DNA of 40,698 nt from the IMG/VR virus record IMGVR_UViG_3300034170_000007, positions 1 to 40,698 of that record, one strand, 5' to 3'. Position numbers and translations under genes: made by a program. Below are positions 1,095 through 12,176 of this stretch, piece after piece. Within the stretch, counting starts at the first letter, position 1. Every line of letters begins with the position of its first letter. The notes below the pieces were generated by a model. The model did no database searches and was not told the DNA's origin. It saw nothing but the letters and a program-made list of their open reading frames with translations. Source of the stretch: a virus.

Positions 1095-1706
1095 TTACTT
1101 AACGAAGTCAGGTGTGTCAAGACCTTCTTCTGACTCTCTTGCGTAGGCTTCACGAAGCGCTTCACGGTACTCAGAGAAGGCCGTCAGTCGGTCTGCCAGC
1201 TCGTCTCCCTCAAAGTACAACTCCTTTCCATCAATCACACGCTCAATCTCTTCCTCAGAAAGGAAACCAGCATAGGTTGAACGTACAAAACGAGCAATCA
1301 TTTTGTCGTTGTGATCAACGTTTGCCTTAACGTGAGGAGCGATACCAGCGTAGCCATAGCTAGCTGTGTGTACCATGAAAGATGACATTTCGTCAATCTC
1401 CCATTCGTCGCACGCAAGTGCGATTGCTGTAGCAGCACTAGCACACGTTGGTCCGATGTAAGCAACTGTGTGGGCTGCTGTACTGGTGATAGCACGACAG
1501 ATTAAATGTCCTGTGTCCAAACTACCACCCGGAGAAACAATCTCGATATTAATCACGTCACGCTCGCCAGCGGCAGCAAAGAGTTGAAACTCTTCTTCGA
1601 AGTCATCAGGTTCTGTGATTGCACGAGCTAGTCTTAGTCTATACTCGTTTACAACGTGCTGGTTAACCATAATGCGGTTAGGTTTATTTCCAATTTCCTC
1701 ACTCAT
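1095..1706 (-). CDS. ClpP-like serine protease
   Basis: A 203-residue protein of the ClpP/crotonase-fold protease superfamily. Visible hallmarks are the oxyanion strand VSPGGS (residues 58-63), a nucleophile region PTCASAAT with Ser90 as probable catalytic serine, and HTAS with His113; the 23-residue Ser-His spacing is close to the 25 of bacterial ClpP. The C-terminal segment with GKELYFEGDELADRL resembles the end of ClpP-like phage proteases, where the acidic residue of the triad lies upstream. The ATG at 1706 follows a GGGAGGG site; the frame is open further upstream, but that part lies within phoH. It overlaps phoH by 8 bases. The role in phage is unknown (turnover of host or phage proteins); a prohead protease is less likely because an XkdF-type one is encoded at 12.2 kb. 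Confidence 0.85.
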   Translation of the reverse strand: MSEEIGNKPNRIMVNQHVVNEYRLRLARAITEPDDFEEEFQLFAAAGERDVINIEIVSPGGSLDTGHLICRAITSTAAHTVAYIGPTCASAATAIALACDEWEIDEMSSFMVHTASYGYAGIAPHVKANVDHNDKMIARFVRSTYAGFLSEEEIERVIDGKELYFEGDELADRLTAFSEYREALREAYARESEEGLDTPDFVK

Positions 1707-2460
1707 GTTTCTTTCCCTCCCGTTCGTCCTTCTCAAATGCGATGATCCAATCCTTGCAGGCTTGGCTACGCTCGATGTCATTTACATGGTTGAAGTCGAT
1801 AAAACCAATTTCAAGATGTGAGTGGCGTGAAGCCATATCTGTCAGCATCTTTAAACCGCTGTGGGATTTAAGGGCACTTTGGCTAACATCACCAGAGATA
1901 ACCATCTTACAGTCCTTACCCTGGCGGGTAACAATGTTCTTGGCTTCCTCTTGGTTAATGTCTTCGCCTTCGTCAACAATAAAGAAACACTTCTCAGCAC
2001 TAAAACCTTTCAACACTTCAAGTGGCACATACTGAATGTTTCCATTTTCAATGGCTGTCTCAAGTCCGCCAGGCGTTAGGCGATCCTTCAAGATATTGAT
2101 TACTGGCATCAGCCACATCTCCATTTTCTCAAGTGCGCTCCCTTTGAACATCCCAAGACTCTTTGAGTTAGAAATGTTTGGACGCACGAATACAATCTTG
2201 TCGATTTCACCCTTAAGGTAAGCATCACACGCCATGACTGTTGGGATATACGTCTTAGACGTGCCCGCGTAGCCTGTGGCGATTGTTAGAGGGTTTTCGT
2301 TGATGCTCTGAATGTAGGCACGTTGCTTCTCGTTGCGAGGCGTCAGAGGCTTTGTGTTAGCTGCACGTTGTTCAACAAACTTAGACTGAACCTCACGTCC
2401 CTTTTCTTCCTTTACTTCCCAGCGTTTGCCGAGAACCTTTGCTTGGTTTCTTTTAGCCAT
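1699..2460 (-). CDS. phoH: PhoH-like ATPase
   Basis: A 253-residue P-loop ATPase of the PhoH family, the helicase-like ATPases common in phages whose role in infection is not settled. Walker A is GYAGTSKT at residues 63-70, with Ser where most members have Gly before the Lys-Thr pair. Walker B is FFIVDEGED around Asp163-Glu164, and the sensor-like VISGD and SGLKMLTDM motifs follow. The Lys/Arg-rich first 40 residues form an N-terminal extension. The ATG has a GGAGGTG ribosome site. It overlaps the ClpP-like gene downstream, suggesting coupled expression; a terminator-like hairpin lies directly upstream (2474-2494). Confidence 0.93.
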   Translation of the reverse strand: MAKRNQAKVLGKRWEVKEEKGREVQSKFVEQRAANTKPLTPRNEKQRAYIQSINENPLTIATGYAGTSKTYIPTVMACDAYLKGEIDKIVFVRPNISNSKSLGMFKGSALEKMEMWLMPVINILKDRLTPGGLETAIENGNIQYVPLEVLKGFSAEKCFFIVDEGEDINQEEAKNIVTRQGKDCKMVISGDVSQSALKSHSGLKMLTDMASRHSHLEIGFIDFNHVNDIERSQACKDWIIAFEKDEREGKKHE

Positions 2461-2499: not shown

Positions 2500-2844
2500 T
2501 CACTCTGCTTCTTCAGCCTCTGGAATCATAGCCATAAGAATTCGGATACGTTCATCGTGAACGGCCTCACTAACTTGGTGAGAGACGAAGATAACTTTGT
2601 TGAATTCTTCGCTTTTCATAATCTTGTCGACACGCTTGATTGTTGCGAAATCAACACTCTCCAAGAAAGCCTTACCGATAATCTCGGTGTAAGCATCAAG
2701 GTCAACCATCGCAAGAAGTTGCTCGGCCAGCTCTGGAGTAAGTGTGAGCCCTTGTGCATCTAGGATAGGGAAGAGTGCGTTACCAAGATCGTTCTTTGCA
2801 AACTCATAGAAGAATTCACGTTGGGCTTTTGTAAGTTTTGTCAT
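2500..2844 (-). CDS. Hypothetical helical protein, 114 aa
   Basis: Predicted to be almost wholly alpha-helical, with an acidic C-terminus (ends PEAEEAE). The arrangement of a helical N-terminus followed by 'IGKAFLESVDFATIKRVDKIMKSEEF' loosely recalls DUF2059-like proteins, but I do not consider this an identification. It starts 3 bases after the portal-like gene stops, with a TTAGGAG ribosome site inside that gene's end. Confidence 0.8.
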   Translation of the reverse strand: MTKLTKAQREFFYEFAKNDLGNALFPILDAQGLTLTPELAEQLLAMVDLDAYTEIIGKAFLESVDFATIKRVDKIMKSEEFNKVIFVSHQVSEAVHDERIRILMAMIPEAEEAE

Positions 2845-2846
2845 AA

Positions 2847-3041
2847 TCAGTCTCCTAAAAGTTCAATGTCGAAAAGTCGTTCACGTGTCTCAGGGTCGCG
2901 TTCAGATGGCATAATAAGTCCACTCCGCTGCCCAGTTTGTATCTCTTTAATCAAATTTTTGTAGTGCTCGAAGACTTCTTTATCTTCTTCACTCGCGTCT
3001 TTACGCAAGTATCTAGCTGGCATTCGCAGTATAAGCAACAT
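2847..3041 (-). CDS. Portal-derived mini-protein, 64 aa
   Basis: This small gene encodes a divergent copy of portal protein residues 253-309 (gene at 10707-12176). Aligned by eye without gaps, about 29 of 59 positions are identical, including ARY/PRY, KDAS/EDAS, FEHYKN/FEYYKN, SGLIMP/SGLILP, and DPETRERLF/DPESRQPLF. The DNA has diverged, so the duplication is old and the frame has been kept. The ATG overlaps the upstream stop (TAATG) and carries a strong GGAGGTGA ribosome site, so translation is likely. It contains only the region around one portal helix-loop segment and cannot be a portal by itself. Binding to portal rings as a regulator is conceivable, but that is inference. Confidence 0.85.
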   Translation of the reverse strand: MLLILRMPARYLRKDASEEDKEVFEHYKNLIKEIQTGQRSGLIMPSERDPETRERLFDIELLGD

Positions 3042-3463
3042 TATTCACCTCCAATCTCTTCGATAGTCTGTTCTGCTTTTAGGGCTTTCTTTGCAGGAGC
3101 CTTCTTAGCTGGCTTGGTATCCTCTACATGGACCTTCTGACGCATCTGGATACTCTTGAAGCTGCGTTCATCGAAGAAGTGTGCACCGTGTAGGTCAAAC
3201 TCATACCCAGCCTCTACGAAGCTCTCAAGCAGCTTTAGGAAGGCCATTGCCTCGTAGTGTTCAACACGTCCATTCGTGTCAGCAGGGATTTCAACCAGAC
3301 CGCCACGAGCTTCTTTGAACAACCTCACCTGATGGTGATACGCACCGAAGAATGGAACACCCTCGTTTGTGTTACGGACTGCGTACCCTTCAGATAATTT
3401 TTCACAAACTGTATTGACGAAACCGATAGGGTTGTGGTCAACTACATCAACAAATTCTACCAC
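3041..3463 (-). CDS. Hypothetical protein, 140 aa, first gene of the leftward operon
   Basis: Unrecognised protein with a globular N-terminal part and a Lys/Ala-rich tail (KPAKKAPAKKALKAEQ, near residues 119-134) that resembles nucleic-acid-binding tails. The open frame continues upstream to an ATG at 3598, but the sigma70-like promoter at 3496-3523 lies inside that extension. A GTG at 3463 has an AAGGAG site 6 bases upstream, so I take GTG-3463 as the start. Its stop overlaps the portal-like gene. Confidence 0.75.
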   Translation of the reverse strand: MVEFVDVVDHNPIGFVNTVCEKLSEGYAVRNTNEGVPFFGAYHHQVRLFKEARGGLVEIPADTNGRVEHYEAMAFLKLLESFVEAGYEFDLHGAHFFDERSFKSIQMRQKVHVEDTKPAKKAPAKKALKAEQTIEEIGGE

Positions 3464-3495
3464 CTTGTTCTCCTTGTGTTCTTGAATAAGTTCTG

Positions 3496-3523
3496 ATAGT
3501 ATCACGGTATCTCCAATTGTCAA
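3496..3523 (-). promoter_or_regulatory. Sigma70-like promoter, leftward operon
   Basis: Read leftward: TTGACA (3523-3518), 16-base spacer, TACTAT (3501-3496). It matches the TTGACA-N16-TAnnnT pattern seen at several places in this phage and is placed to transcribe the whole leftward operon from 3463. It lies back to back with the rightward promoter at 3537. Confidence 0.7.
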
Positions 3524-3536
3524 GCTATGATTTATA

Positions 3537-3565
3537 TTGACTTTCGGAGTTTGTGGTGGTAGGAT
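3537..3565 (+). promoter_or_regulatory. Sigma70-like promoter in front of structured leader RNA copy 1
   Basis: TTGACT, 17-base spacer, TAGGAT. The predicted transcript start is only a few bases before the first conserved block of the structured RNA (GGAGAGA at 3578). Copy 2 has a promoter in the same place, which supports this weaker match. Confidence 0.55.
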
Positions 3566-3577
3566 GTAAAAGCTGAT

Positions 3578-3861
3578 GGAGAGAAATGTCGAATGCACTC
3601 ACCGGCCATCAGGATCAAGCCTATGAAGAGGAAGCTACTGGGCAAGCTGAGTTCTAATCTGATTAAAGCGTAGCGACGACACCGAAAGGTGGAATGATCA
3701 GAATCTGACGCACCCGCGTCTCCAGCCTGTGCTGGCCGAATGCAATCTCAATCTACGAGGTGCAGGGAAGATAGAACCAAGGAAGGTCTAGGCGACTAAT
3801 AATCGTATGGCTTTCCTTGGGACAGTTCTATCTTCCGATACAAAACTCATCTACGAGATAG
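3578..3861 (+). ncRNA. Structured leader RNA, copy 1 (family with copy at 35571)
   Basis: A roughly 284-base non-coding element related to 35571-35850. Shared blocks in order are GGAGAGA-ATGTCG, CTCACCGGCC (3598), ATGAAGAGGA-GCT (3623), AGCGA, GAATC/CAATCT, CCGA-TGC-ATCTCAAT, AGGCGA...TCGTATGGC and AAACTCAT. Between them lie stems that differ from copy 2 but still pair: CACC-GAAA-GGTG (3680-3691), GACGC-ACCC-GCGTC (3707-3720), CCAGC-CTGT-GCTGG (3722-3735), and a 15-bp bipartite stem, GATAGAAC/GTTCTATC plus CAAGGAA/TTCCTTG (3770-3832). TCTACGAG occurs twice (3752, 3850). The GTAT of the last loop could pair with ATAC downstream (pseudoknot). The element starts at a predicted promoter and leads toward the gene at 3955. 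I do not recognise the family. Confidence 0.75.
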
Positions 3862-4645: not shown

Positions 4646-4722
4646 GAGACGTTGGCCGACCGGCGCTAGGCAACAGGCTTTTAACCTGTATTAACTTGGT
4701 TCGATTCCAAGGCGTTTCACCA
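4646..4722 (+). tRNA. tRNA-Lys(TTT)
   Basis: Acceptor GAGACGT pairs with GCGTTTC (two G-U pairs). D stem GCC/GGC, anticodon stem ACAGG/CCTGT with loop CTTTTAA, and T arm CTTGG-TTCGATT-CCAAG. CCA is encoded. Confidence 0.93.
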
Positions 4723-4727
4723 AATAC

Positions 4728-4817
4728 AGCGGATTGGCAGAGAGGCTTAATGCAACGCTTTGCTAAAGCGTCGGCCCAGAAATGGGTCCGTAGGTTCGAA
4801 TCCTACATCCGCTACCA
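4728..4817 (+). tRNA. tRNA-Ser(GCT)
   Basis: Acceptor AGCGGAT/ATCCGCT, anticodon stem ACGCT/AGCGT with loop TTGCTAA. A long variable arm (class II) is present as expected for serine. T loop TTCGAAT; encoded CCA. Confidence 0.95.
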
Positions 4818-4821
4818 GAAT

Positions 4822-4921
4822 GACCGTGTCGCTCACGGTATGACAAACACTAGACAGTGAGGGTTCTGCTGTCTCTTCATGGAGTGGTATTGAGGCCACT
4901 CATTGGGGTAAGAGTCCCCAC
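4822..4921 (+). other. Inter-tRNA spacer with four consecutive hairpins
   Basis: Four perfect short stems follow one another: ACCGTG/CACGGT, GACAG/CTGTC, GAGTGG/CCACTC and TGGGG/CCCCA. It has no T-loop signature and no CCA, so it is not a normal tRNA. It may be a decayed tRNA, a processing signal or a small RNA. Confidence 0.5.
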
Positions 4922-4939
4922 AGGCAACCTCTAAATTTT

Positions 4940-5033
4940 GGGTAGTAATGCAGCGGGGTTGGTCCTGCGACTAGTCTTGAAAACTAGGTTCTGGCGTGAG
5001 CCGGATGGGGTTCGACTCCTCTGCTACCCGCCA
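4940..5033 (+). tRNA. tRNA-Ser(TGA)
   Basis: Acceptor GGGTAGT/GCTACCC, anticodon stem CTAGT/ACTAG with loop CTTGAAA. Long variable arm built on CTGGC/GCCGG, T loop TTCGACT, discriminator G, encoded CCA. Confidence 0.95.
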
Positions 5034-5041
5034 AATATAAA

Positions 5042-5117
5042 GGGTCTGAAGCATTGACGGTTGATGCAATCGGCTCATAACCGATAGAAGAGGGATCGTA
5101 ACCCTACAGACCCACCA
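5042..5117 (+). tRNA. tRNA-Met(CAT), or Ile2 if lysidine-modified
   Basis: Acceptor GGGTCTG/CAGACCC, D arm GCAT/ATGC, anticodon stem ATCGG/CCGAT with loop CTCATAA. T loop ATCGTAA departs from consensus. Elongator Met and AUA-reading Ile2 cannot be told apart here. Confidence 0.9.
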
Positions 5118-5120
5118 AAT

Positions 5121-5205
5121 GCCTGTATGGTGGAATTGGTATACACAGCGTTCTTAAACAGCGCCGCCCTCGGGATTGTGGGATCGTGGCCCACTACAGG
5201 CACCA
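5121..5205 (+). tRNA. tRNA-Leu(TAA)
   Basis: Acceptor GCCTGTA/TACAGGC, anticodon stem GCGTT/AGCGC with loop CTTAAAC. Class II variable arm CGCCCTCGGGATTG, T arm with loop ATCGTGG (consensus TTC replaced by ATC, as in tRNA-Leu(TAG) at 8236). Encoded CCA. Confidence 0.93.
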
Positions 5206-5213
5206 AAATACAA

Positions 5214-5287
5214 GCATCATTAGTTCAATGGGAGAACGCCATCCTTACAAGGTGGCTACGGTGGTTCGATTCCATCATGATGCACCA
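5214..5287 (+). tRNA. tRNA-Val(TAC)
   Basis: Acceptor GCATCAT/ATGATGC, D stem GTTC/GAAC, anticodon stem CCATC/GGTGG with loop CTTACAA. T loop TTCGATT; encoded CCA. Confidence 0.95.
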
Positions 5288-5299
5288 AACATCACAAAG

Positions 5300-5340
5300 T
5301 AGCAGCACTCGGGTTCGACTCCCGCCCGCAGCCCTCGGAG
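5300..5340 (+). pseudogene. tRNA 3'-half remnant
   Basis: CGGG-TTCGACT-CCCG is a good T arm followed by CCCGCAG, but no matching acceptor 5' strand, D arm or anticodon arm lies upstream, where tRNA-Val ends at 5287. It reads as the 3' part of a tRNA whose 5' part was lost. The remaining sequence to 5380 shows nothing further that I can identify. Confidence 0.5.
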
Positions 5341-5387
5341 GGACCGTGAAAGGTGGTTCATAAAGTGTGTGAAACGTGACTAGAGAG

Positions 5388-5417
5388 TTGACAAAGGACG
5401 GCCGTCTGGAGTAGACT
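5388..5417 (+). promoter_or_regulatory. Possible promoter before tRNA-Gln
   Basis: TTGACA, 18-base spacer, TAGACT. The spacing is longer than in the other promoters here, and the flanks (GAGAGT/ACTCTC) could also pair, so this is a weaker candidate. Confidence 0.4.
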
Positions 5418-5432
5418 CTCGGTACTAATTAT

Positions 5433-5507
5433 GGCCGGTTGGCGAAGTGGGAACGCAGCGAGCTTTGACCTCGTTATGAGGAGGTTCGATCCCTCCACCG
5501 GACGCCA
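5433..5507 (+). tRNA. tRNA-Gln(TTG)
   Basis: Acceptor GGCCGGT/ACCGGAC with one mismatch at pair 2-71, D stem GCG/CGC, anticodon stem GCGAG/CTCGT with loop CTTTGAC. Discriminator G as expected for glutamine; encoded CCA. Confidence 0.92.
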
Positions 5508-5525
5508 AACATTGAAGGAGATACA

Positions 5526-6083
5526 ATGATTTATCTTAAGTGGTTTGTACTGGCTATCTTGGATTTACTGCTGACACTCACTGTATTGGTTGCCGCACCT
5601 ATCATTGCACTCTTCACAAGGGAACAGGCTTATGGAAAGCCTGAGTATACTTGGGGCTGGCTGTGGGGCACATACGACAACCCACCTCAAGGTGACGAAG
5701 GTTATGTAGCTAAGCGTGCAATGTTCTTAAACGCGACAACAGGGATCAAAGGTTATGTGAACCGTGTAATGTGGATGTTCAGAAACCCTCTTTATGGGTT
5801 CTCTCGACGTGCAGCATTGTCTTACAGAGACACATACACAATCGTAACAACTGGAAATCCTGATATCAGCGACAAGTACAAGATTCCAGGAAGTATGACA
5901 ACAAAACTGTATGACGGCAAGAAGCTTATCGGCTTTGAGTACTACCTTATCAAGCCTTGGTCTGAGACAAAAGACCTTCGTATGAGACTCGGATGGAAGA
6001 TCACAACAGAGAAGTTTGCCTTAAACGGTTTCGCTCCTCTGGTTGTTACTGCCAATCCGCTTGATGGCTACGGTAATGACTGA
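5526..6083 (+). CDS. Membrane-anchored phage protein, 185 aa
   Basis: One strongly hydrophobic N-terminal segment (about residues 3-30) anchors the protein in the inner membrane. The remaining 150 residues are soluble, with conserved-looking aromatic blocks (YTWGWLWGTYDNP, RNPLYGFSRR, GFEYYLIKPW). Proteins of this pattern occur as uncharacterised membrane proteins in several large phages. The gene has a GAAGGAGA ribosome site and lies inside the tRNA array, 18 bases after tRNA-Gln, so it is probably transcribed together with the tRNAs. Function unknown. Confidence 0.88.
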   Translation: MIYLKWFVLAILDLLLTLTVLVAAPIIALFTREQAYGKPEYTWGWLWGTYDNPPQGDEGYVAKRAMFLNATTGIKGYVNRVMWMFRNPLYGFSRRAALSYRDTYTIVTTGNPDISDKYKIPGSMTTKLYDGKKLIGFEYYLIKPWSETKDLRMRLGWKITTEKFALNGFAPLVVTANPLDGYGND

Positions 6084-6141
6084 CAGAATACTCCTGAAGC
6101 TTCAAGCGCCTTGGGAATATGTCGTATAACCAACATACGAC

Positions 6142-6170
6142 TTGACGCTCAGGAGACAGCGTGCTATAAA
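6142..6170 (+). promoter_or_regulatory. Promoter before tRNA-Trp
   Basis: TTGACG, 17-base spacer, TATAAA. A 7-bp stem GGAGACA/TGTCTCC (6151-6177) overlaps the spacer and start region, so the transcript may begin in a hairpin. A second hairpin, GTCGTAT/ATACGAC, lies just upstream. Confidence 0.6.
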
Positions 6171-6187
6171 TGTCTCCCACGAATTAA

Positions 6188-6262
6188 GGGTCTTGATTGT
6201 GATAGCAGCATGCTGGCCTCCAAAGCCATGCGGACTGGGAGCGTAACCTAGATGGCCCGCCA
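6188..6262 (+). tRNA. tRNA-Trp(CCA), divergent
   Basis: Acceptor GGGTCTT pairs with ATGGCCC except at one position. Anticodon loop CTCCAAA on a TGGC/GCCA stem, discriminator G (usual for Trp), encoded CCA. The D loop lacks a clear GG, and the T loop reads AGCGTAA instead of TTCGAAT, so scanners may score it poorly and its activity is less certain than its neighbours'. Confidence 0.7.
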
Positions 6263-6268
6263 AACAAT

Positions 6269-6343
6269 GCTGGTATGGTGTATTGGATGCACAAGGGTCT
6301 TCTAAGCCCTCAAGGGTTGGTTCGAATCCAACTACCAGCACCA
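6269..6343 (+). tRNA. tRNA-Arg(TCT)
   Basis: Acceptor GCTGGTA/TACCAGC, D stem GTGT/GCAC, anticodon stem AGGGT/GCCCT with loop CTTCTAA. T arm GTTGG-TTCGAAT-CCAAC; encoded CCA. It reads AGA/AGG. Confidence 0.95.
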
Positions 6344-6370
6344 TATGTGCAAATAGTTTTAAATAAACGC

Positions 6371-6399
6371 TTGACAGATTAGATTTGTCGTGTTTTAAT
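6371..6399 (+). promoter_or_regulatory. Sigma70-like promoter
   Basis: TTGACA, 17-base spacer, TTTAAT, placed to transcribe the 40-codon gene at 6434 and tRNA-Glu onward. Confidence 0.65.
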
Positions 6400-6433
6400 A
6401 CTCATATGAATCAGACATTAAGGAGAGATACAG

Positions 6434-6556
6434 ATGGCAAAGTATTACGATGCAACTAAAGAACACGCTCCGGTTGACAAGACACGCTTGAAAGACAGCA
6501 AAGGTCGTCACCCAAACAAGAATAAACAGGGCAAGCCACCAAGCGTGGTAAGCTAA
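6434..6556 (+). CDS. Small basic protein, 40 aa
   Basis: ATG with an AGGAGAGA site 6-8 bases upstream opens a 40-codon frame (MAKYYDATKEHAPVDKT...KPPSVVS) rich in Lys, Arg and Pro and without hydrophobic segments. It lies behind its own promoter between tRNA genes. It looks unstructured and nucleic-acid-binding in charge only; no function is known. Confidence 0.7.
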   Translation: MAKYYDATKEHAPVDKTRLKDSKGRHPNKNKQGKPPSVVS

Positions 6557-6598
6557 ATGAGACAAGAAATTGATCTTGGCTTAGTATAAAGATTTAAT

Positions 6599-6675
6599 GC
6601 ACCACTCGTCTACGAGGTTTAGGATATGAGGTTTTCACCCTCATGAACGGGGTTCGAGTCCCCGGTGGTGTACCA
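6599..6675 (+). tRNA. tRNA-Glu(TTC)
   Basis: Acceptor GCACCAC/GTGGTGT, D region CGTCTACGAGGTTTAGGAT as in bacterial tRNA-Glu, anticodon stem TGAGG/CCTCA with loop TTTTCAC. T arm CGGGG-TTCGAGT-CCCCG; encoded CCA. Confidence 0.94.
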
Positions 6676-6678
6676 TAT

Positions 6679-6784
6679 TTGAATGATAAATACGTCCAGC
6701 TAATCGGCGGAAGGAACAACTCAACAGCCCATTGAAATAGATGGTATTGAGCCTAAGATGAAAGTCACCGATATTCATTCAAAG
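6679..6784 (+). other. Stem-enclosed inter-tRNA spacer with possible promoter
   Basis: TTTGAATGA near 6679 pairs perfectly with TCATTCAAA ending near 6784 and would close the whole spacer. Inside, TTGAAA (6732) and TAAGAT (6754), 16 bases apart, make a weak promoter for tRNA-Asp. No gene is seen. Confidence 0.4.
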
Positions 6785-6790
6785 CTACAT

Positions 6791-6866
6791 GGCTTATGTT
6801 TCCTCTGGGAAGGAAGGCACACTGTCTATGTGTCAGTTGAGGGTTCGAATCCCTTATAGGTCGCCA
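6791..6866 (+). tRNA. tRNA-Asp(GTC)
   Basis: Acceptor GGCTTAT/ATAGGTC (two G-U pairs), D stem TTCC/GGAA, anticodon stem GCACA/TGTGT with loop CTGTCTA. Discriminator G, as expected for Asp; encoded CCA. Confidence 0.88.
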
Positions 6867-6870
6867 ATTT

Positions 6871-6944
6871 GCCCTTTTAGTATATTGGTATTACTCGGCC
6901 TTTGTAACGCTGAAAACGCAGTTCGATTCTGTGATGGGGCACCA
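6871..6944 (+). tRNA. tRNA-Thr(TGT)
   Basis: Acceptor GCCCTTT/ATGGGGC with one mismatch, anticodon loop TTTGTAA on a CGGCC/CGCTG stem with one mismatch, T arm with loop TTCGATT. Encoded CCA. Confidence 0.85.
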
Positions 6945-6947
6945 AAT

Positions 6948-6976
6948 TTGACAGCACTAACGCCTTATGGTATTGT
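6948..6976 (+). promoter_or_regulatory. Promoter before tRNA-Arg(ACG)
   Basis: TTGACA, 17-base spacer, TATTGT, starting 4 bases after tRNA-Thr. Downstream, an 8-bp stem TATCAGGT/ACCTGATA (about 7000-7034) precedes the next tRNA. Confidence 0.55.
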
Positions 6977-7043
6977 CCGTCACTTAGCTAGGCTTGGCTT
7001 ATCAGGTAGAAGCCCGTACCTCCAAAACCTGATATAAATTTAA

Positions 7044-7117
7044 AGTCGCTTGGCCGATTGGATAGGCTCAGGTCTACGAAGCCTGCTAGAGTGGTTCGAC
7101 TCCACTAGTGACTACCA
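7044..7117 (+). tRNA. tRNA-Arg(ACG)
   Basis: Acceptor AGTCGCT/AGTGACT, D stem GCC/GGC, anticodon stem CAGGT/GCCTG with loop CTACGAA. T arm AGTGG-TTCGACT-CCACT; encoded CCA. An A34 suggests inosine modification by host TadA to read CGN codons. Confidence 0.95.
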
Positions 7118-7230
7118 AATTATAGAATGCCTATGTAGATAGCAACGTCCTAGGTACTGTTGTTACATACAGAAGCTGTTTCTCGCCGGGGTGTAACCAT
7201 AGGGTGTTATCTATGGGTATCAAGATTAAT
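7118..7230 (+). other. Unassigned structured inter-tRNA spacer
   Basis: 113 bases without a gene or recognisable tRNA. Stems that can form include CCTATG/CATAGG (ends of the spacer), CAAC/GTTG and CCATAG/CTATGG; some are mutually exclusive. No T-loop signature is present. Confidence 0.35.
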
Positions 7231-7304
7231 TGCTCGTTAGCATAGTGGTAATGCAGTCGGCTGATAACCGTCTTAGGGGTGTTCAATTCACTCACGAGCA
7301 ACCA
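7231..7304 (+). tRNA. tRNA-Ile(GAT)
   Basis: Acceptor TGCTCGT/ACGAGCA, D stem GCAT/ATGC, anticodon loop CTGATAA on GTCGG/CCGTC (one mismatch). T arm GGGTG-TTCAATT-CACTC; encoded CCA. Confidence 0.92.
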
Positions 7305-7352
7305 AATTCTGCGTAAACCAGAAACAAGATTCCTTTTACGGCTTTTAGAAGG

Positions 7353-7421
7353 GATCGGGAAACAAAGGGGTAAGAACTTTAGCGAGTTCGAATGTCTCAG
7401 ACTAAGCCGTTGAAAGACAAC
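7353..7421 (+). pseudogene. Decayed tRNA-like element
   Basis: A perfect 7-bp acceptor-like stem, ACGGCTT/AAGCCGT, encloses about 57 bases with an AAAG/CTTT hairpin and a T-loop-like GAGTTCGAATGTCTC. There is no CCA (TGA follows), and neither a 5-bp T stem nor a standard anticodon loop, so it is probably a dead tRNA gene. Confidence 0.45.
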
Positions 7422-7435
7422 GCGAATACTACAGA

Positions 7436-7511
7436 TGCGGTCAGGTGAACTGGTGGACACAGCAGCCTCATAAGCTGAATAAGGTGAGTTCGATTCTCAC
7501 GTCCGCAACCA
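7436..7511 (+). tRNA. tRNA with CAT anticodon (Met, fMet-like or Ile2)
   Basis: Acceptor TGCGGTC/GTCCGCA with one mismatch, D stem GTG/CAC, anticodon loop CTCATAA on GCAGC/GCTGA, T arm GTGAG-TTCGATT-CTCAC. Ends CGCAACCA like initiator tRNAs and has a weak U1-A72 first pair, but it lacks the three G-C pairs next to the anticodon loop that mark fMet. Second CAT tRNA of the array. Confidence 0.88.
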
Positions 7512-7651
7512 AATTTGATGCGCCACAGCACGGAGACATTAGTCTTATAGGCATGATGAAAAACGGTCATGACATCAAATCAAACACCGTGCTCCCCACG
7601 GGTACAGCCAGATAGAGTGTGCTGTATAAATATAGTCTCTATCAGAATTAT
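7512..7651 (+). other. Structured spacer with acceptor-like stem
   Basis: AGCACGG pairs with CCGTGCT across about 55 bases that contain AGAC/GTCT and CATGA/TCATG hairpins, a tRNA-like outline without a T arm. A second part has TACAGC/GCTGTA interleaved with GATAGAG/CTCTATC (pseudoknot-capable). No gene seen. Confidence 0.4.
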
Positions 7652-7728
7652 AGGTAATGATCTCACCGGGCGTGGGTCGCTGGCTGTTAACCAGCAGATG
7701 GGAGGTTCGAGTCCTCTATTACCTGCCA
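7652..7728 (+). tRNA. tRNA-Asn(GTT)
   Basis: Acceptor AGGTAAT/ATTACCT, D stem CTCA/TGGG, anticodon stem GCTGG/CCAGC with loop CTGTTAA. Discriminator G, T loop TTCGAGT, encoded CCA. Confidence 0.95.
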
Positions 7729-7734
7729 AACAAA

Positions 7735-7823
7735 GCGTCGTGATTTATGGGGACTGGGATTCCCGCTGGGCTGTAAACCCGGTGTCCAAGACTGCGTGGT
7801 TCGATTCCGACCATGACGCACCA
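7735..7823 (+). tRNA. tRNA-Tyr(GTA)
   Basis: Acceptor GCGTCGT/ATGACGC, anticodon stem CTGGG/CCCGG with loop CTGTAAA, and a long variable arm as expected for bacterial tRNA-Tyr. T loop TTCGATT; encoded CCA. Confidence 0.94.
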
Positions 7824-7844
7824 ATTAAGATGTAGAAGATTTAA

Positions 7845-7918
7845 CTAGATGAAGCGTTACGGTAGCGTACTGGCTTTGGAAGCCTGTGGCGGTGGTTCGA
7901 CTCCACCCATCTAGACCA
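7845..7918 (+). tRNA. tRNA-Pro(TGG)
   Basis: Acceptor CTAGATG/CATCTAG, anticodon loop TTTGGAA on CTGGC/GCCTG (one mismatch), T arm GGTGG-TTCGACT-CCACC. Encoded CCA. Confidence 0.92.
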
Positions 7919-7922
7919 ATTT

Positions 7923-7996
7923 GGGCTTGTGGTAAAACGGGAATACGCGGTCTTTGCAAGTCCGAGTTCAGGGTTCGACTCCCTGCTGGTCCACCA
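7923..7996 (+). tRNA. tRNA-Ala(TGC)
   Basis: Acceptor GGGCTTG/CTGGTCC with G-U pairs and one mismatch, D stem GTA/TAC, anticodon loop TTTGCAA on CGGTC/GTCCG (one mismatch), T arm CAGGG-TTCGACT-CCCTG. Encoded CCA. Confidence 0.88.
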
Positions 7997-8013
7997 AATA
8001 AGGAGTGCTTAAT

Positions 8014-8169
8014 ATGAGAGTCCGAGTAAAACAAACCAAGAAGAAGTTTGCTATGATGCCATGCGGGTGTTGTGAGAGGGTTTATTACAAGGAGAAGAGT
8101 CTGGATAAGCAGACCCTCAAAGAAGCACTTGAAGAAATAAGCAATACGCTTGACTGTGACGTCGTGTAG
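8014..8169 (+). CDS. Small CxCC protein, 51 aa, overlaps tRNA-His
   Basis: ATG with an AAGGAG site opens a 51-codon frame with a very basic N-terminus (MRVRVKQTKKKF), a PCGCCE cluster at residues 16-21 and a helical C-terminal half that ends CDVV. Part of a zinc or metal site is possible, but only three or four cysteines are present. The last 14 bases of the gene, including its TAG stop, are the first 14 bases of tRNA-His, so transcript processing at the tRNA 5' end would remove the stop codon from the mRNA. Confidence 0.7.
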   Translation: MRVRVKQTKKKFAMMPCGCCERVYYKEKSLDKQTLKEALEEISNTLDCDVV

Positions 8170-8229
8170 TCTGGGACTACCTTCCGGTTGTGACCCGGTT
8201 GTTAGAGATCGAAACTCTGCGTCACCCCA
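8156..8229 (+). tRNA. tRNA-His(GTG)
   Basis: Acceptor GTGACGT/GCGTCAC, D stem GTAG/CTAC, anticodon stem TCCGG/CCGGT with loop TTGTGAC. Discriminator C73 as needed for HisRS; the base before position 1 is T rather than the encoded G-1 usual in bacteria. Encoded CCA. The 5' end overlaps the gene at 8014. Confidence 0.92.
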
Positions 8230-8235
8230 AATTAT

Positions 8236-8320
8236 GGGCCAGTGGTGGAACTGGTATACACAGCAGTCTTAGAAACTGCCGCCGAAAGGATTGAGGGATC
8301 GTGACCCTCTTGGCCCACCA
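8236..8320 (+). tRNA. tRNA-Leu(TAG)
   Basis: Acceptor GGGCCAG/TTGGCCC, D region GTGGAACTGGTATACAC nearly identical to tRNA-Leu(TAA) at 5121, anticodon stem GCAGT/ACTGC with loop CTTAGAA. Class II variable arm, encoded CCA. The two Leu tRNAs look like duplicates. Confidence 0.95.
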
Positions 8321-8326
8321 AATTAT

Positions 8327-8402
8327 GTCCTTCTTGCCTGAGCGGCTAGGGTGCTGATTGCAAACCAGTAATAGATCGGTTCAACTCCGATAGAAGGCTC
8401 CA
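8327..8402 (+). tRNA. tRNA-Cys(GCA), irregular acceptor
   Basis: Anticodon loop TTGCAAA on GCTGA/CCAGT, T arm ATCGG-TTCAACT-CCGAT, discriminator T and encoded CCA fit tRNA-Cys. The acceptor pairs as CCTTCT/AGAAGG with a bulged T near the 5' end, so the 5' boundary is uncertain by a base. Confidence 0.82.
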
Positions 8403-8407
8403 AACAT

Positions 8408-8483
8408 GCGTGATTCGTATAGAGGTCTAATACTCTCGGCTTCCACCCGAGTAACCAGGGTTCGACTCCCTGATCCCGCACCA
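8408..8483 (+). tRNA. tRNA-Gly(TCC)
   Basis: Acceptor GCGTGAT/ATCCCGC with one mismatch, D stem GTAT/ATAC, anticodon stem CTCGG/CCGAG with loop CTTCCAC. T arm CAGGG-TTCGACT-CCCTG; encoded CCA. Confidence 0.92.
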
Positions 8484-8485
8484 AT

Positions 8486-8558
8486 TTTGAAGATGGTGGT
8501 TAAATCCCAACCCCAAGCGGTTAAATGCACCGGCTTGCGATTCAGTGAGAGTATCTTC
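8486..8558 (+). other. tRNA-sized element without T arm or CCA
   Basis: An 8-bp stem, TTGAAGAT/ATCTTCAA, encloses a TGG/CCA and a CAAGC/GCTTG hairpin. The size and outline recall a tRNA, but the T-loop motif and CCA are missing. Decayed tRNA or unrelated small RNA. Confidence 0.4.
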
Positions 8559-8568
8559 AATCTCTTTT

Positions 8569-8644
8569 GCATTCTAAGCTAACTAGGTAGAAGCACTGGC
8601 TTGAAACCCCAGATGACGTGGATCGATACCACGAGAATGCACCA
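8569..8644 (+). tRNA. tRNA-Phe(GAA)
   Basis: Acceptor GCATTCT/AGAATGC, D stem GCT/AGC, anticodon loop TTGAAAC on CTGGC/CCCAG (one mismatch), T arm CGTGG-ATCGATA-CCACG. Encoded CCA. Last tRNA of the array. Confidence 0.9.
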
Positions 8645-8657
8645 ATAAAATTAGTCA

Positions 8658-8725
8658 CATGTTGGTTCGATTCCAACCTCAGCGCCCTGGTGCGTTAGAG
8701 TAGCATTGATGGTTCATGCAGGCTA
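8658..8725 (+). pseudogene. Scrambled tRNA fragments
   Basis: A good T arm (GTTGG-TTCGATT-CCAAC) is followed, not preceded, by a D-arm-like GCAT-TGATGGTTC-ATGC that is nearly identical to the D arm of the tRNA-Met at 5042. No anticodon arm is present. It reads as juxtaposed pieces of lost tRNA genes. Confidence 0.5.
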
Positions 8726-9227: not shown

Positions 9228-10697
9228 ATGGCTGACGATATGGTCTTTGACTTGGACCCTAACGTTATCGGGCCAAAGTCGAAAAAGCAATATGACTTCA
9301 TGCACAGCGAAGCAGACATCACCGTGTTCGGTGGAGCGGCTGGAGCTGGCAAGAGTTATCTGGGTGTTATGGACTTCCTTAAACATATCCAGTATCCAAA
9401 TTTCCGTGGTTGTATGGTAAGACGTACAACTCCACAGTTGAAAGGTCCAGGCGGTCTCCAAGAGAAAGCAGAAGAACTTTTCAGACTGATCGATCCAAAG
9501 GTAAGATGGCGTGATAAAGAACACCACTTCCTCTTCTCTAACGGAGCTAAGATTTACCTCCGTCACTTTGAAAACCCTAAAGACACTGAGAACTTCCAAG
9601 GCTGGGAAGTAAACCACTTCCTTGTGGACGAAGGCCAGCAATTCGAAGAGATGATGGTTGAATACTTAACCTCTCGTATGCGTAACCCAAAGTGTCCAGA
9701 AGTTAAACCTCACATGAAGATCACTTGCAACCCTGACTACGGTTCGTTCCTTCGTCATTGGTTAGAATGGTGGCTAGACCCAGACACTGGAATCCCTATT
9801 CCAGAGCGTGATGGAGTTGTCCGCTACTTCCTAAAGCTAGATGGTAAGATGGTTTGGGGCTCTTCTAAGGCAGAGTTGATTGAGAAGTACGGTAAGCCAA
9901 ACTTATCCGCTGATCATAAAAACCAAGTTAAACCGCTCAGCTTCAAATTCATTGCAGCCAACGTTTACGACAACCCAGTACTTTGTAATGCACAACCAGA
10001 ATATGTTGGTTGGCTAGAAGGCTTGGGTCGTGTTGAGAAAGAACGTCTACTTTATGGTAGCTGGCTGGCACGTGCTGAGGGTACTGGTTACTTCAAATCT
10101 CAATGGTGCAACATGGTAACTCAACGTGACATTGCTTCTGTGAAGCGTGTACGTGCATGGGATATCAGTGGCTCCGTTCCCTCTGAAACCAATCGTAACC
10201 CTGACTGGACTGCTGGAGTTCTAATGAGCCGCAGTAAATTGGGAACCTATACAGTTGAAGATGTTGTTCGTGATCGTCGCCGTCATGGTGGTGTGTTTGA
10301 ACTCATTCTGGAAACTGCAAGGCACGATGGTGATGACGTTCAAATTATCATTCCTTGTGACCCTGGTGCTGCCGGTAAGGCTTACGCTGCTCAACTCATT
10401 CGTGACTTGGCAGATCATGGGTTCTACGCAAGAATGAAACAAACAAACAAATCGAAGGTGACTCGGTTCGCCCCGTTTGCTGCTATTGCAGAAGCTGGTA
10501 GTGTGGAGATTATCGAGGCTGACTGGACTAAAGACTTTCTGTTGGAACTTGAACGTTTCGACGGTAGCAAGAATATTAAGGATGACCAAGTGGACGCCAC
10601 ATCTGATGCCTTCCACGCACTATCATCTGAACAATACTTGCCTGACTTCTCTCTTCCAGTAATGACCCAGACAAACCCTTTCGCATTTTATAGATAA
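9228..10697 (+). CDS. terL: Terminase large subunit
   Basis: The DNA-packaging motor: an N-terminal ATPase and a C-terminal RNase H-like nuclease that cuts concatemers at the portal. Of 489 residues, Walker A is GGAAGAGKS (35-43), Walker B is HFLVDEGQQF (Asp134-Glu135), a coupling motif KITCNP follows at about 164-169, and nuclease acidic residues are visible in RAWDIS (Asp312), PCDPGAAGK (Asp378) and KDDQVDATSDAF (Asp452/453/456/460). The length is usual for the family. ATG with a GAGGACAG site; the portal gene follows after 9 bases. Confidence 0.97.
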   Translation: MADDMVFDLDPNVIGPKSKKQYDFMHSEADITVFGGAAGAGKSYLGVMDFLKHIQYPNFRGCMVRRTTPQLKGPGGLQEKAEELFRLIDPKVRWRDKEHHFLFSNGAKIYLRHFENPKDTENFQGWEVNHFLVDEGQQFEEMMVEYLTSRMRNPKCPEVKPHMKITCNPDYGSFLRHWLEWWLDPDTGIPIPERDGVVRYFLKLDGKMVWGSSKAELIEKYGKPNLSADHKNQVKPLSFKFIAANVYDNPVLCNAQPEYVGWLEGLGRVEKERLLYGSWLARAEGTGYFKSQWCNMVTQRDIASVKRVRAWDISGSVPSETNRNPDWTAGVLMSRSKLGTYTVEDVVRDRRRHGGVFELILETARHDGDDVQIIIPCDPGAAGKAYAAQLIRDLADHGFYARMKQTNKSKVTRFAPFAAIAEAGSVEIIEADWTKDFLLELERFDGSKNIKDDQVDATSDAFHALSSEQYLPDFSLPVMTQTNPFAFYR

Positions 10698-10706
10698 GGA
10701 GCAATA

Positions 10707-12176
10707 ATGGCTAAGCGCAGTAAAGTTGAAAAAGTAGCCACTCCTATCCCAAGACTACGACTTGGTGAAATTGGGTCAGTTGGCCTAAGACAGTACAATG
10801 GTACTATCGCTGAGGAAATGAGACGTGAGTTACGTTTCCCAGAAGCATGCCGTACATATCGAACAATGGGACAGGACGCTACAATCCGCTCTGCAATCTC
10901 CCTGGTCGAGATGATGATCAGCCGAGTTGAGTGGACAATTGATCTTGGCATCGAACCTGATGAAGCTATGAAAGCTCGTGGAAAATTCTTAGAAGAAGTT
11001 AAGGATGACATGGAGCATAGCTTCGAAGACTTCATTCGTGAAGTTACAAGTATGTACACATACGGGTTCTGTGTTAACGAGAAAGTGTATCGTCGCAGGA
11101 CGTTTGAGTCTGGCTCCTCGTACAACGACAACAAGATTGGTATCAGAAAGCTCCCTGTTCGCTCTCAGGACACGATCTTCCGCTGGGTATATAGCGATGA
11201 CGGTAGAGACCTAATCGGCCTTGAGCAGAATCTGGCGGGCATTCAGGGTGGTGAGCGTTACGCTAACATCATCAGCCTTGGCAGCAATGGCCTAGTTCCA
11301 ATCCCTCGTAAGAAGTTCATGCTGTTCCGTGTAGACGCTAAGAGAGACAACCCAGAAGGCAATAGCCCTCTACGTGGTTGCTACAACGCTTGGCTATTCC
11401 GTAGACAGATTGAAGAACAAGAATCGATTGGTATCACACGTGATATGAACGGTATGCCAACCTTGTATCTTCCACCACGTTATATGAGTGAAGACGCATC
11501 TGATAGTGAGAAGGCAATCTTCGAATACTACAAGAACGTTATCCGAAACATCCAAATGAACGAGCAGTCTGGTTTGATCTTGCCACAGGCATTTGACCCA
11601 GAGAGCCGTCAACCACTCTTCAAGTTTGAACTGACTTCCACTCAAGGTGGGAAGATGTACGACACTGACACAATCATCAAGCGTTGGGACAACAAAATCC
11701 TAATGGTGCTGTTTGCTGACATGTTGAAGATGGGTCAGGATCAAGTAGGTTCCTACTCCCTAGCTGGTGCAAAAACAAACATTATGGCGATGGCTATTGA
11801 AGCCAGACTTAGAGAAATTCAAGACGTTCTCAACAACGACCTAGTTCCACAACTGTTCGCACTTAACGGTGAAGCTGCTCCTAGTAAGCAACTGCCTAAG
11901 TTCAAATATGGCGACCTAGACGAAGTTGACTTGGACGAATTCTCTAAAGCAATTCAACGTATGGGTAGTGTTGGTGGCATTGAACTTGACCGTGATATGG
12001 CTAACAAAATCCGAGAGGCTTTAAACGTTACACCTAAGAAAGCTGATGAACCAGTTGACAAAGAAGAAATCATGGGTGGCGATAGCCAGTCTGGTGACGG
12101 AATGGCTGCTGGTGGTGGCAATGGTGCTAGCAAGACTGCCTCTACACGTGATAACGCTGCCGCAAACAACGCATAA
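10707..12176 (+). CDS. Portal protein
   Basis: The dodecameric ring at the capsid vertex through which DNA passes. The 489-residue protein lies directly after the terminase. Typical features are a helical N-terminal part (DATIRSAISLVEMMISRVEW), a region with EIFRW/DTIFRWVYSD, 'PRKKFMLFRVDAKRDNPEGNSPLRGCYNAWLF' split by loops, and a Gly/Ala/Asn-rich C-terminal tail. Residues 253-309 are the source or relative of the separate mini-gene at 2847-3041. AAGGAG ribosome site. Confidence 0.94.
   Translation: MAKRSKVEKVATPIPRLRLGEIGSVGLRQYNGTIAEEMRRELRFPEACRTYRTMGQDATIRSAISLVEMMISRVEWTIDLGIEPDEAMKARGKFLEEVKDDMEHSFEDFIREVTSMYTYGFCVNEKVYRRRTFESGSSYNDNKIGIRKLPVRSQDTIFRWVYSDDGRDLIGLEQNLAGIQGGERYANIISLGSNGLVPIPRKKFMLFRVDAKRDNPEGNSPLRGCYNAWLFRRQIEEQESIGITRDMNGMPTLYLPPRYMSEDASDSEKAIFEYYKNVIRNIQMNEQSGLILPQAFDPESRQPLFKFELTSTQGGKMYDTDTIIKRWDNKILMVLFADMLKMGQDQVGSYSLAGAKTNIMAMAIEARLREIQDVLNNDLVPQLFALNGEAAPSKQLPKFKYGDLDEVDLDEFSKAIQRMGSVGGIELDRDMANKIREALNVTPKKADEPVDKEEIMGGDSQSGDGMAAGGGNGASKTASTRDNAAANNA

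Follow-up and report, generated by a model that had tools for sequence, protein, structure and literature searches.

What does a phage gain from a free-standing gene for one segment of the portal protein? The question is raised by a 64-residue reading frame in the window, the whole 40,698-base virus record analysed here, whose structural region is nearest to that of the Otagovirus Pseudomonas phage PPSC2 (85.7% nucleotide identity). The first-pass annotation had read this frame as a functional gene copied from residues 253-309 of the phage's own portal. Our analysis places it instead in a previously unrecognised family of stand-alone portal clips, of which it is one member and not a private copy of the portal encoded beside it.

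A gene for the portal clip domain

The frame begins with ATG and runs unbroken, with the ribosome binding site GGAGGTG 4 bases 5' of the start codon (Table 1). It is packed into a minus-strand operon, in the order phrog_5019 gene, stand-alone clip, DUF7375, PhoH and ClpP, in which the TAA stop of the phrog_5019 gene and the clip-gene start have one A in common (TAATG) and the DUF7375 gene starts 2 bases after the clip-gene stop. This operon is oriented opposite to the terminase and portal genes and is read away from the tRNA genes and from the structural genes on the plus strand. The independent start, strong ribosome site, intact frame and outward-facing operon described in the first-pass annotation were all confirmed. 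About 20 tRNA genes lie at positions 4646-8668, between the PhoH operon and the terminase; an ARAGORN tmRNA call at 7901-8668 overlaps several of them and looks false, and Rfam adds a further tRNA at 8569-8641.

Table 1. Features of the window relevant to the stand-alone clip gene
Feature	Position	Strand	Basis or remark
Stand-alone portal clip-domain gene	2847..3041	-	64 aa; ORF list, BLASTP, PHROGs, AF2
Ribosome binding site GGAGGTG	3046..3052	-	From sequence
Upstream operon gene, phrog_5019	3041..3598	-	E 5.4e-49; start codon uncertain
Downstream operon gene, DUF7375 / phrog_5067	2500..2844	-	Pfam/PHROGs family matches
PhoH-like ATPase gene, same operon as stand-alone clip	1699..2460	-	Family matches
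ClpP-like protease gene	1095..1781	-	ORF as listed; real start probably ~1706
Terminase large subunit	9228..10697	+	Family matches
Portal protein, 489 aa	10707..12176	+	Family matches
Clip domain within portal, residues 253-309, counterpart of the stand-alone gene	11463..11633	+	BLASTP, Foldseek, VIA-align

By BLASTP, residues 5-61 of the product aligned with residues 253-309 of the window's own portal at 29/57 identical (51%) and 43/57 similar positions, with no gaps (E 1e-19), in line with the gapless match at about half of the positions reported at first. Portals in the phage collection were matched at up to 2e-14. The AlphaFold2 model, built from 21 rows comprising the window protein and IMG/VR stand-alone and portal segments, had a pLDDT of 89.5 and contained a strand (2-6), a helix (18-35), bridge residues 47 and 55 as a minimal middle strand, and a strand at 58-62. 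With this model the top four PDB matches in Foldseek were all portals, and VIA-align gave Z scores of 7.9, 7.7 and 7.7 over 62-64 residues, within chain residues 244-312 of the three best portals, including the Pakpunavirus P7-1 neck (11bp); since portal segments were in the input alignment, this fold match is not independent of the homology. In sequence searches the stand-alone clip profile landed on residues 248-305 of 11bp_A (E 1.5e-15), and hhalign related stand-alone and portal clips at 99.5%. No Pfam match was obtained for the 64-residue protein, which does not amount to a full Portal_Mu (PF06074) chain. For comparison, the available part of PMC12847820 describes the YonE clip, modelled as residues 270-325, as three strands and one helix joining two stem helices.

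Because model, structural comparisons and profile all land on portal clip residues, the gene encodes hardly more than the portal clip domain, and the segment that was to be mapped on a portal structure falls on that domain; homology and predicted fold together make this a strong family assignment. Across its full 64 residues the protein shares sequence and predicted fold with the clips of Pakpunavirus P7-1 (11bp), Bas63 (9mt4) and Sf14 (9c39). Unlike a portal protein it has no wing, stem or crown, is encoded separately outside the structural operon, and evolves fast.

Stand-alone clips in three phage groups

The gene is conserved in three phage groups. PPSC2 (orf164) and PHB09 (PHB09_023) carry it at the same spot in the same operon. 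In six other phages of this Otagovirus-like group (phiPsa374, KIL1, REC, UAVern, KoPa-4 and phiK7A1) the flanking genes are directly adjacent with nothing between them, and searches of these records found no stand-alone copy. The flanks are likewise without an insert at the PhoH locus of Pakpunavirus PaP1, and in all 6 IMG/VR loci retrieved with the DUF7375 gene; one of these six is apparently phiPsa374 again.

In Nankokuvirus (PAP-JP, PAK_P3, Ab03 and CHA_P1) the clip is a 91-residue protein encoded between SSB-like and exodeoxyribonuclease genes; a search with this form matched 277 records, 39 of them at 60% identity or more. The 73-residue Pakpunavirus form (PaP1_gp096) occupies the same SSB-exonuclease replication position and matched 125 records, 121 at that level. 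Even a profile built without Pakpunavirus rows recovered stand-alone copies in 7 of 28 records, namely PPSC2, PHB09, PAP-JP, PAK_P3, Ab03, CHA_P1 and PaP1 (E 6e-7). PHROGs splits these proteins into two families of unassigned function, phrog_12381 (Nankokuvirus gp55) and phrog_6983 (Pakpunavirus), whose profiles also reach the other stand-alone forms; that of phrog_12381 matches the proteins of the window (E 8.1e-12), PPSC2 (2.2e-8), PHB09 (0.001) and PAP-JP (7.4e-60). Unlike the window gene, phrog_12381 has extra N- and C-terminal tails and a replication-operon location, and phrog_6983 carries a 7-residue insert. BLAST-level similarity between the Pakpunavirus clip and portals is gone; hhalign placed it with other stand-alone clips at 95% versus 67% for portals, and its model, built without portal sequences, had a pLDDT of 65 and no portal among its matches.

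Frames were intact in all stand-alone copies read, and the copies in PPSC2, PHB09, Nankokuvirus and Pakpunavirus answer the first-pass question of whether related phages retain the fragment as a gene. The Pakpunavirus record ZCPS13 gave a match broken into two pieces, such as a frameshift or an error in sequencing would produce. When bacterial and archaeal genomes were scanned, the only relative was a portal frame of 495 residues on a MAG contig, and viral-contig scans gave no match, whether the query was the window protein or the phrog_5019 gene. It had been suggested as a counter-argument that the segment might be an independent domain family that entered both genes separately from other contexts; it does exist as a family, but as far as searched only in this phage's relatives. 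Searches of open-licence papers turned up no account of a stand-alone portal clip, and we regard the gene as a new case, in which one domain of the portal has become a gene of its own with a putative role.

Origin of the stand-alone clips

A tree of 36 rows was computed, omitting UAVern, LPML1 and KIL1 (intron-interrupted) and the G002 and G004 loci (contig ends); the core-column tree also left out PMW, FelixO1, L095 and four Pakpunavirus stand-alone rows. All stand-alone proteins, 10 in the 36-row tree, fell on one side of a branch with only moderate support (81/91 and 83/83); the 81/91 branch was present in 82% of bootstrap trees, and some branches are long. The first-pass idea of a copy made from this phage's own portal did not survive: the window protein groups with other stand-alone clips, and placing it with its own portal group, as a recent duplication would require, was rejected by the AU test (p 4.5e-5; 2.2e-4 on core columns). 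Grouping the three PhoH-locus proteins (PPSC2, PHB09 and window) with that portal group was rejected less strongly (p 0.0235; 0.058 on core columns), so an old origin of these clips from an Otagovirus-like portal is possible, and grouping the Nankokuvirus clip with its own portal was not rejected (p 0.077 on core columns).

Most simply, these trees would reflect an old detachment of a clip from a portal of this wider group of phages, after which the gene was inherited, lost or moved. A single origin is favoured but no more than that, since the alignment has only about 60 columns and some branches are long. The portal is universal in tailed phages, and for this reason we infer that the direction was from portal to stand-alone gene.

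Group I introns (Rfam RF00028) interrupt portal genes just 5' of the clip-coding segment in KIL1 and in IMG/VR contigs, near where the stand-alone homology begins (L071 2377-2692, L037 5713-5920, L078 19-320), and others lie near terminase genes (L071 696-918 and L034 2743-3001 were also located). A link between such introns and the origin of the stand-alone gene is possible.

Purifying selection and fast change

The stand-alone clip is under purifying selection. Its dN/dS was 0.09-0.44 in 24 of 25 pairs from two genera, the 25th pair having no synonymous change, and we conclude from these values that the protein is maintained. Together with the intact copies in other phages, they agree with the earlier view of diverged DNA in a fragment long kept.

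The family nevertheless changes fast. Between the window and PHB09 the stand-alone proteins are 41% identical (59% of positions differ), against portal clips 253-309 that are identical at 57/57 positions, terminases at 90% identity and the rest of the portal at 77-96%. In Nankokuvirus the clip gene had the highest dN among 12 neighbouring genes in four of five phage pairs and came second, behind gene 051, in PAK_P3/CHA_P1; in PAP-JP/CHA_P1 its nucleotide identity was 84%, compared with 87-100% for its neighbours. Pakpunavirus clips were 79-88% identical, with the SSB and exonuclease genes at 95-100%, but 5 of 14 neighbours (gp095, gp099, gp100, gp102 and gp103) were equally or more variable against at least one compared phage. 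Because of these neighbours speed alone does not indicate an arms race; fast change is a trait of the family and no proof of one. The gene just before the Nankokuvirus clip, gp54 (phrog_7018; L003 4764-4958, L021 5806-6000), is divergent in most pairs as well and may travel along as a cassette.

Expression and virion content

Since the gene lies outside the structural operon, the stand-alone clip is probably made apart from, and before, the portal. In PAK_P3, according to the available part of PMC4933390, middle transcripts come from two nucleic-acid-metabolism regions and structural genes are transcribed late; gp55 goes unnamed in that part, and its timing is read from gene position. The PAK_P3 proteins named outside the structural region in the accessible text of PMC4309531 are gp72, gp160 and gp166, gp55 not being among them. 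PaP1 gp096 is not among the 12 virion proteins of Table 4 in PMC3652863, which was available in part, although an 8 kDa product could escape a virion gel.

Possible roles of the free clip

The reading that we rank first, with a probability of about 0.38, is that the protein is a soluble mimic of the portal docking surface and serves as a decoy for immune sensors directed at the portal stem or clip. Lacking wing, stem and crown, the parts from which the portal ring is built, the clip alone (strand, helix, and loop or hairpin) would be a small soluble copy of the surface where terminase, neck proteins and portal-reading sensors dock. In a host sensor it would fill the site that binds clip or stem and would not offer the activating 12-fold ring or full portal monomer. 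The near-invariant portal clip presumably cannot easily mutate to escape, and a separate copy could keep pace with changing sensors by diverging, in agreement with its fast evolution. A phage-internal partner should hold the protein as steady as the portal clip, and this is not seen; a partner that lies outside the phage and itself changes is the better match. More doubtful is the broader proposal of a widespread counter-defence, in which a detached, immune-recognised part of an indispensable structural protein would blind portal-sensing immunity and leave the essential portal clip unchanged.

Portal-sensing defence systems in print number three. Going by the available parts of the sources, the portal clip/stem is contacted by SpbK (PMC11984713, PMC12847820), by Avs4, as told in PMC12847820, and by Swarozyc (PMC13174449). 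A small phage protein that disarms SpbK is also on record, Nip of phage Phi3T, and the comparison is one of function only: in the accessible text of PMC11984713 Nip binds the SpbK TIR domain and involves no clip mimicry, unlike the decoy proposed here. A phage answer that copies the sensed portal surface was not found in the open-licence literature. Against the decoy, a free clip might activate a sensor and not blind it, and the retention of the Pakpunavirus form (121 records at 60% identity or more) would be expected of a general role no less than of an optional counter-defence. We know of no sensor that reads the portals of these phages.

Control of packaging or assembly ranks second and is somewhat unlikely. 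The free clip might bind terminase or head-completion proteins of its own phage and delay their access to the portal until replication is well under way and procapsids have been assembled far enough, in keeping with the clip as docking site for terminase and tail machinery (available parts of PMC12847820 and PMC11984713), with the replication genes adjoining it in Nankokuvirus and Pakpunavirus, and with its non-detection in the PaP1 virion (PMC3652863, in part). Such a partner is hard to square with the PHB09 comparison, where portal clip (100%) and terminase (90%) hold steady and the stand-alone clip is at just 41%, or with phiPsa374 and REC, which have the same portal clip and no stand-alone copy. 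Third, and less probable, the clip fold may have been put to a new use unconnected with portal docking, through a different protein-protein contact, say within the replication complex or during takeover of the host. Two genera place the gene identically, between SSB-like and exonuclease genes, which would suit this, as would a Pakpunavirus form nearer to other stand-alone clips than to portals (hhalign, above); a core replication partner, however, should constrain the clip like the exonuclease and SSB genes, which are 95-100% identical where the clip is 75-96%.

Improbable, and fourth, is interference between phages, in which the fragment would poison a co-infecting phage's portal rings or its terminase docking. 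Some foreign portals (L078-L080) resemble the window protein slightly more closely (54-56% over 59 residues) than its own portal does (51%), and for that reason the protein need not harm the portal of its own phage; but the advantage is a few residues only, and the tree rejects membership of the protein in the L078-L080 portal group (AU p 0.029). A non-functional relic of portal duplication would account for a short gene that is patchy across Otagovirus-like phages and for the two-piece ZCPS13 match, yet we consider it very improbable given the intact frames in copies read, the dN/dS values of 0.09-0.44, the strong ribosome site with translational coupling and the retention in well over 100 GenBank records.

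If the decoy reading is true, it would explain the protection of a trigger that phages cannot mutate and give a function to phrog_12381 and phrog_6983, two families found in Pseudomonas phages in wide use. Should it fail, there are still about 160 GenBank records (121 plus 39, at 60% identity or more) with an unannotated or misnamed portal-clip gene, and the stand-alone gene is a natural, minimal clip usable for tests.

Labels at these loci also deserve attention. Several GenBank records name the Pakpunavirus stand-alone clip (L070 3995-4216) 'sigma factor for late transcription', a label that the family searches do not bear out, as PaP1_gp096 matches phrog_6983 alone in PHROGs and nothing in Pfam. 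In PPSC2 the gene labelled 'PhoH-like protein' (PPSC2_163; L001 4207-4569) is the DUF7375 gene, and the real PhoH homologue is the next gene, labelled Clp protease.
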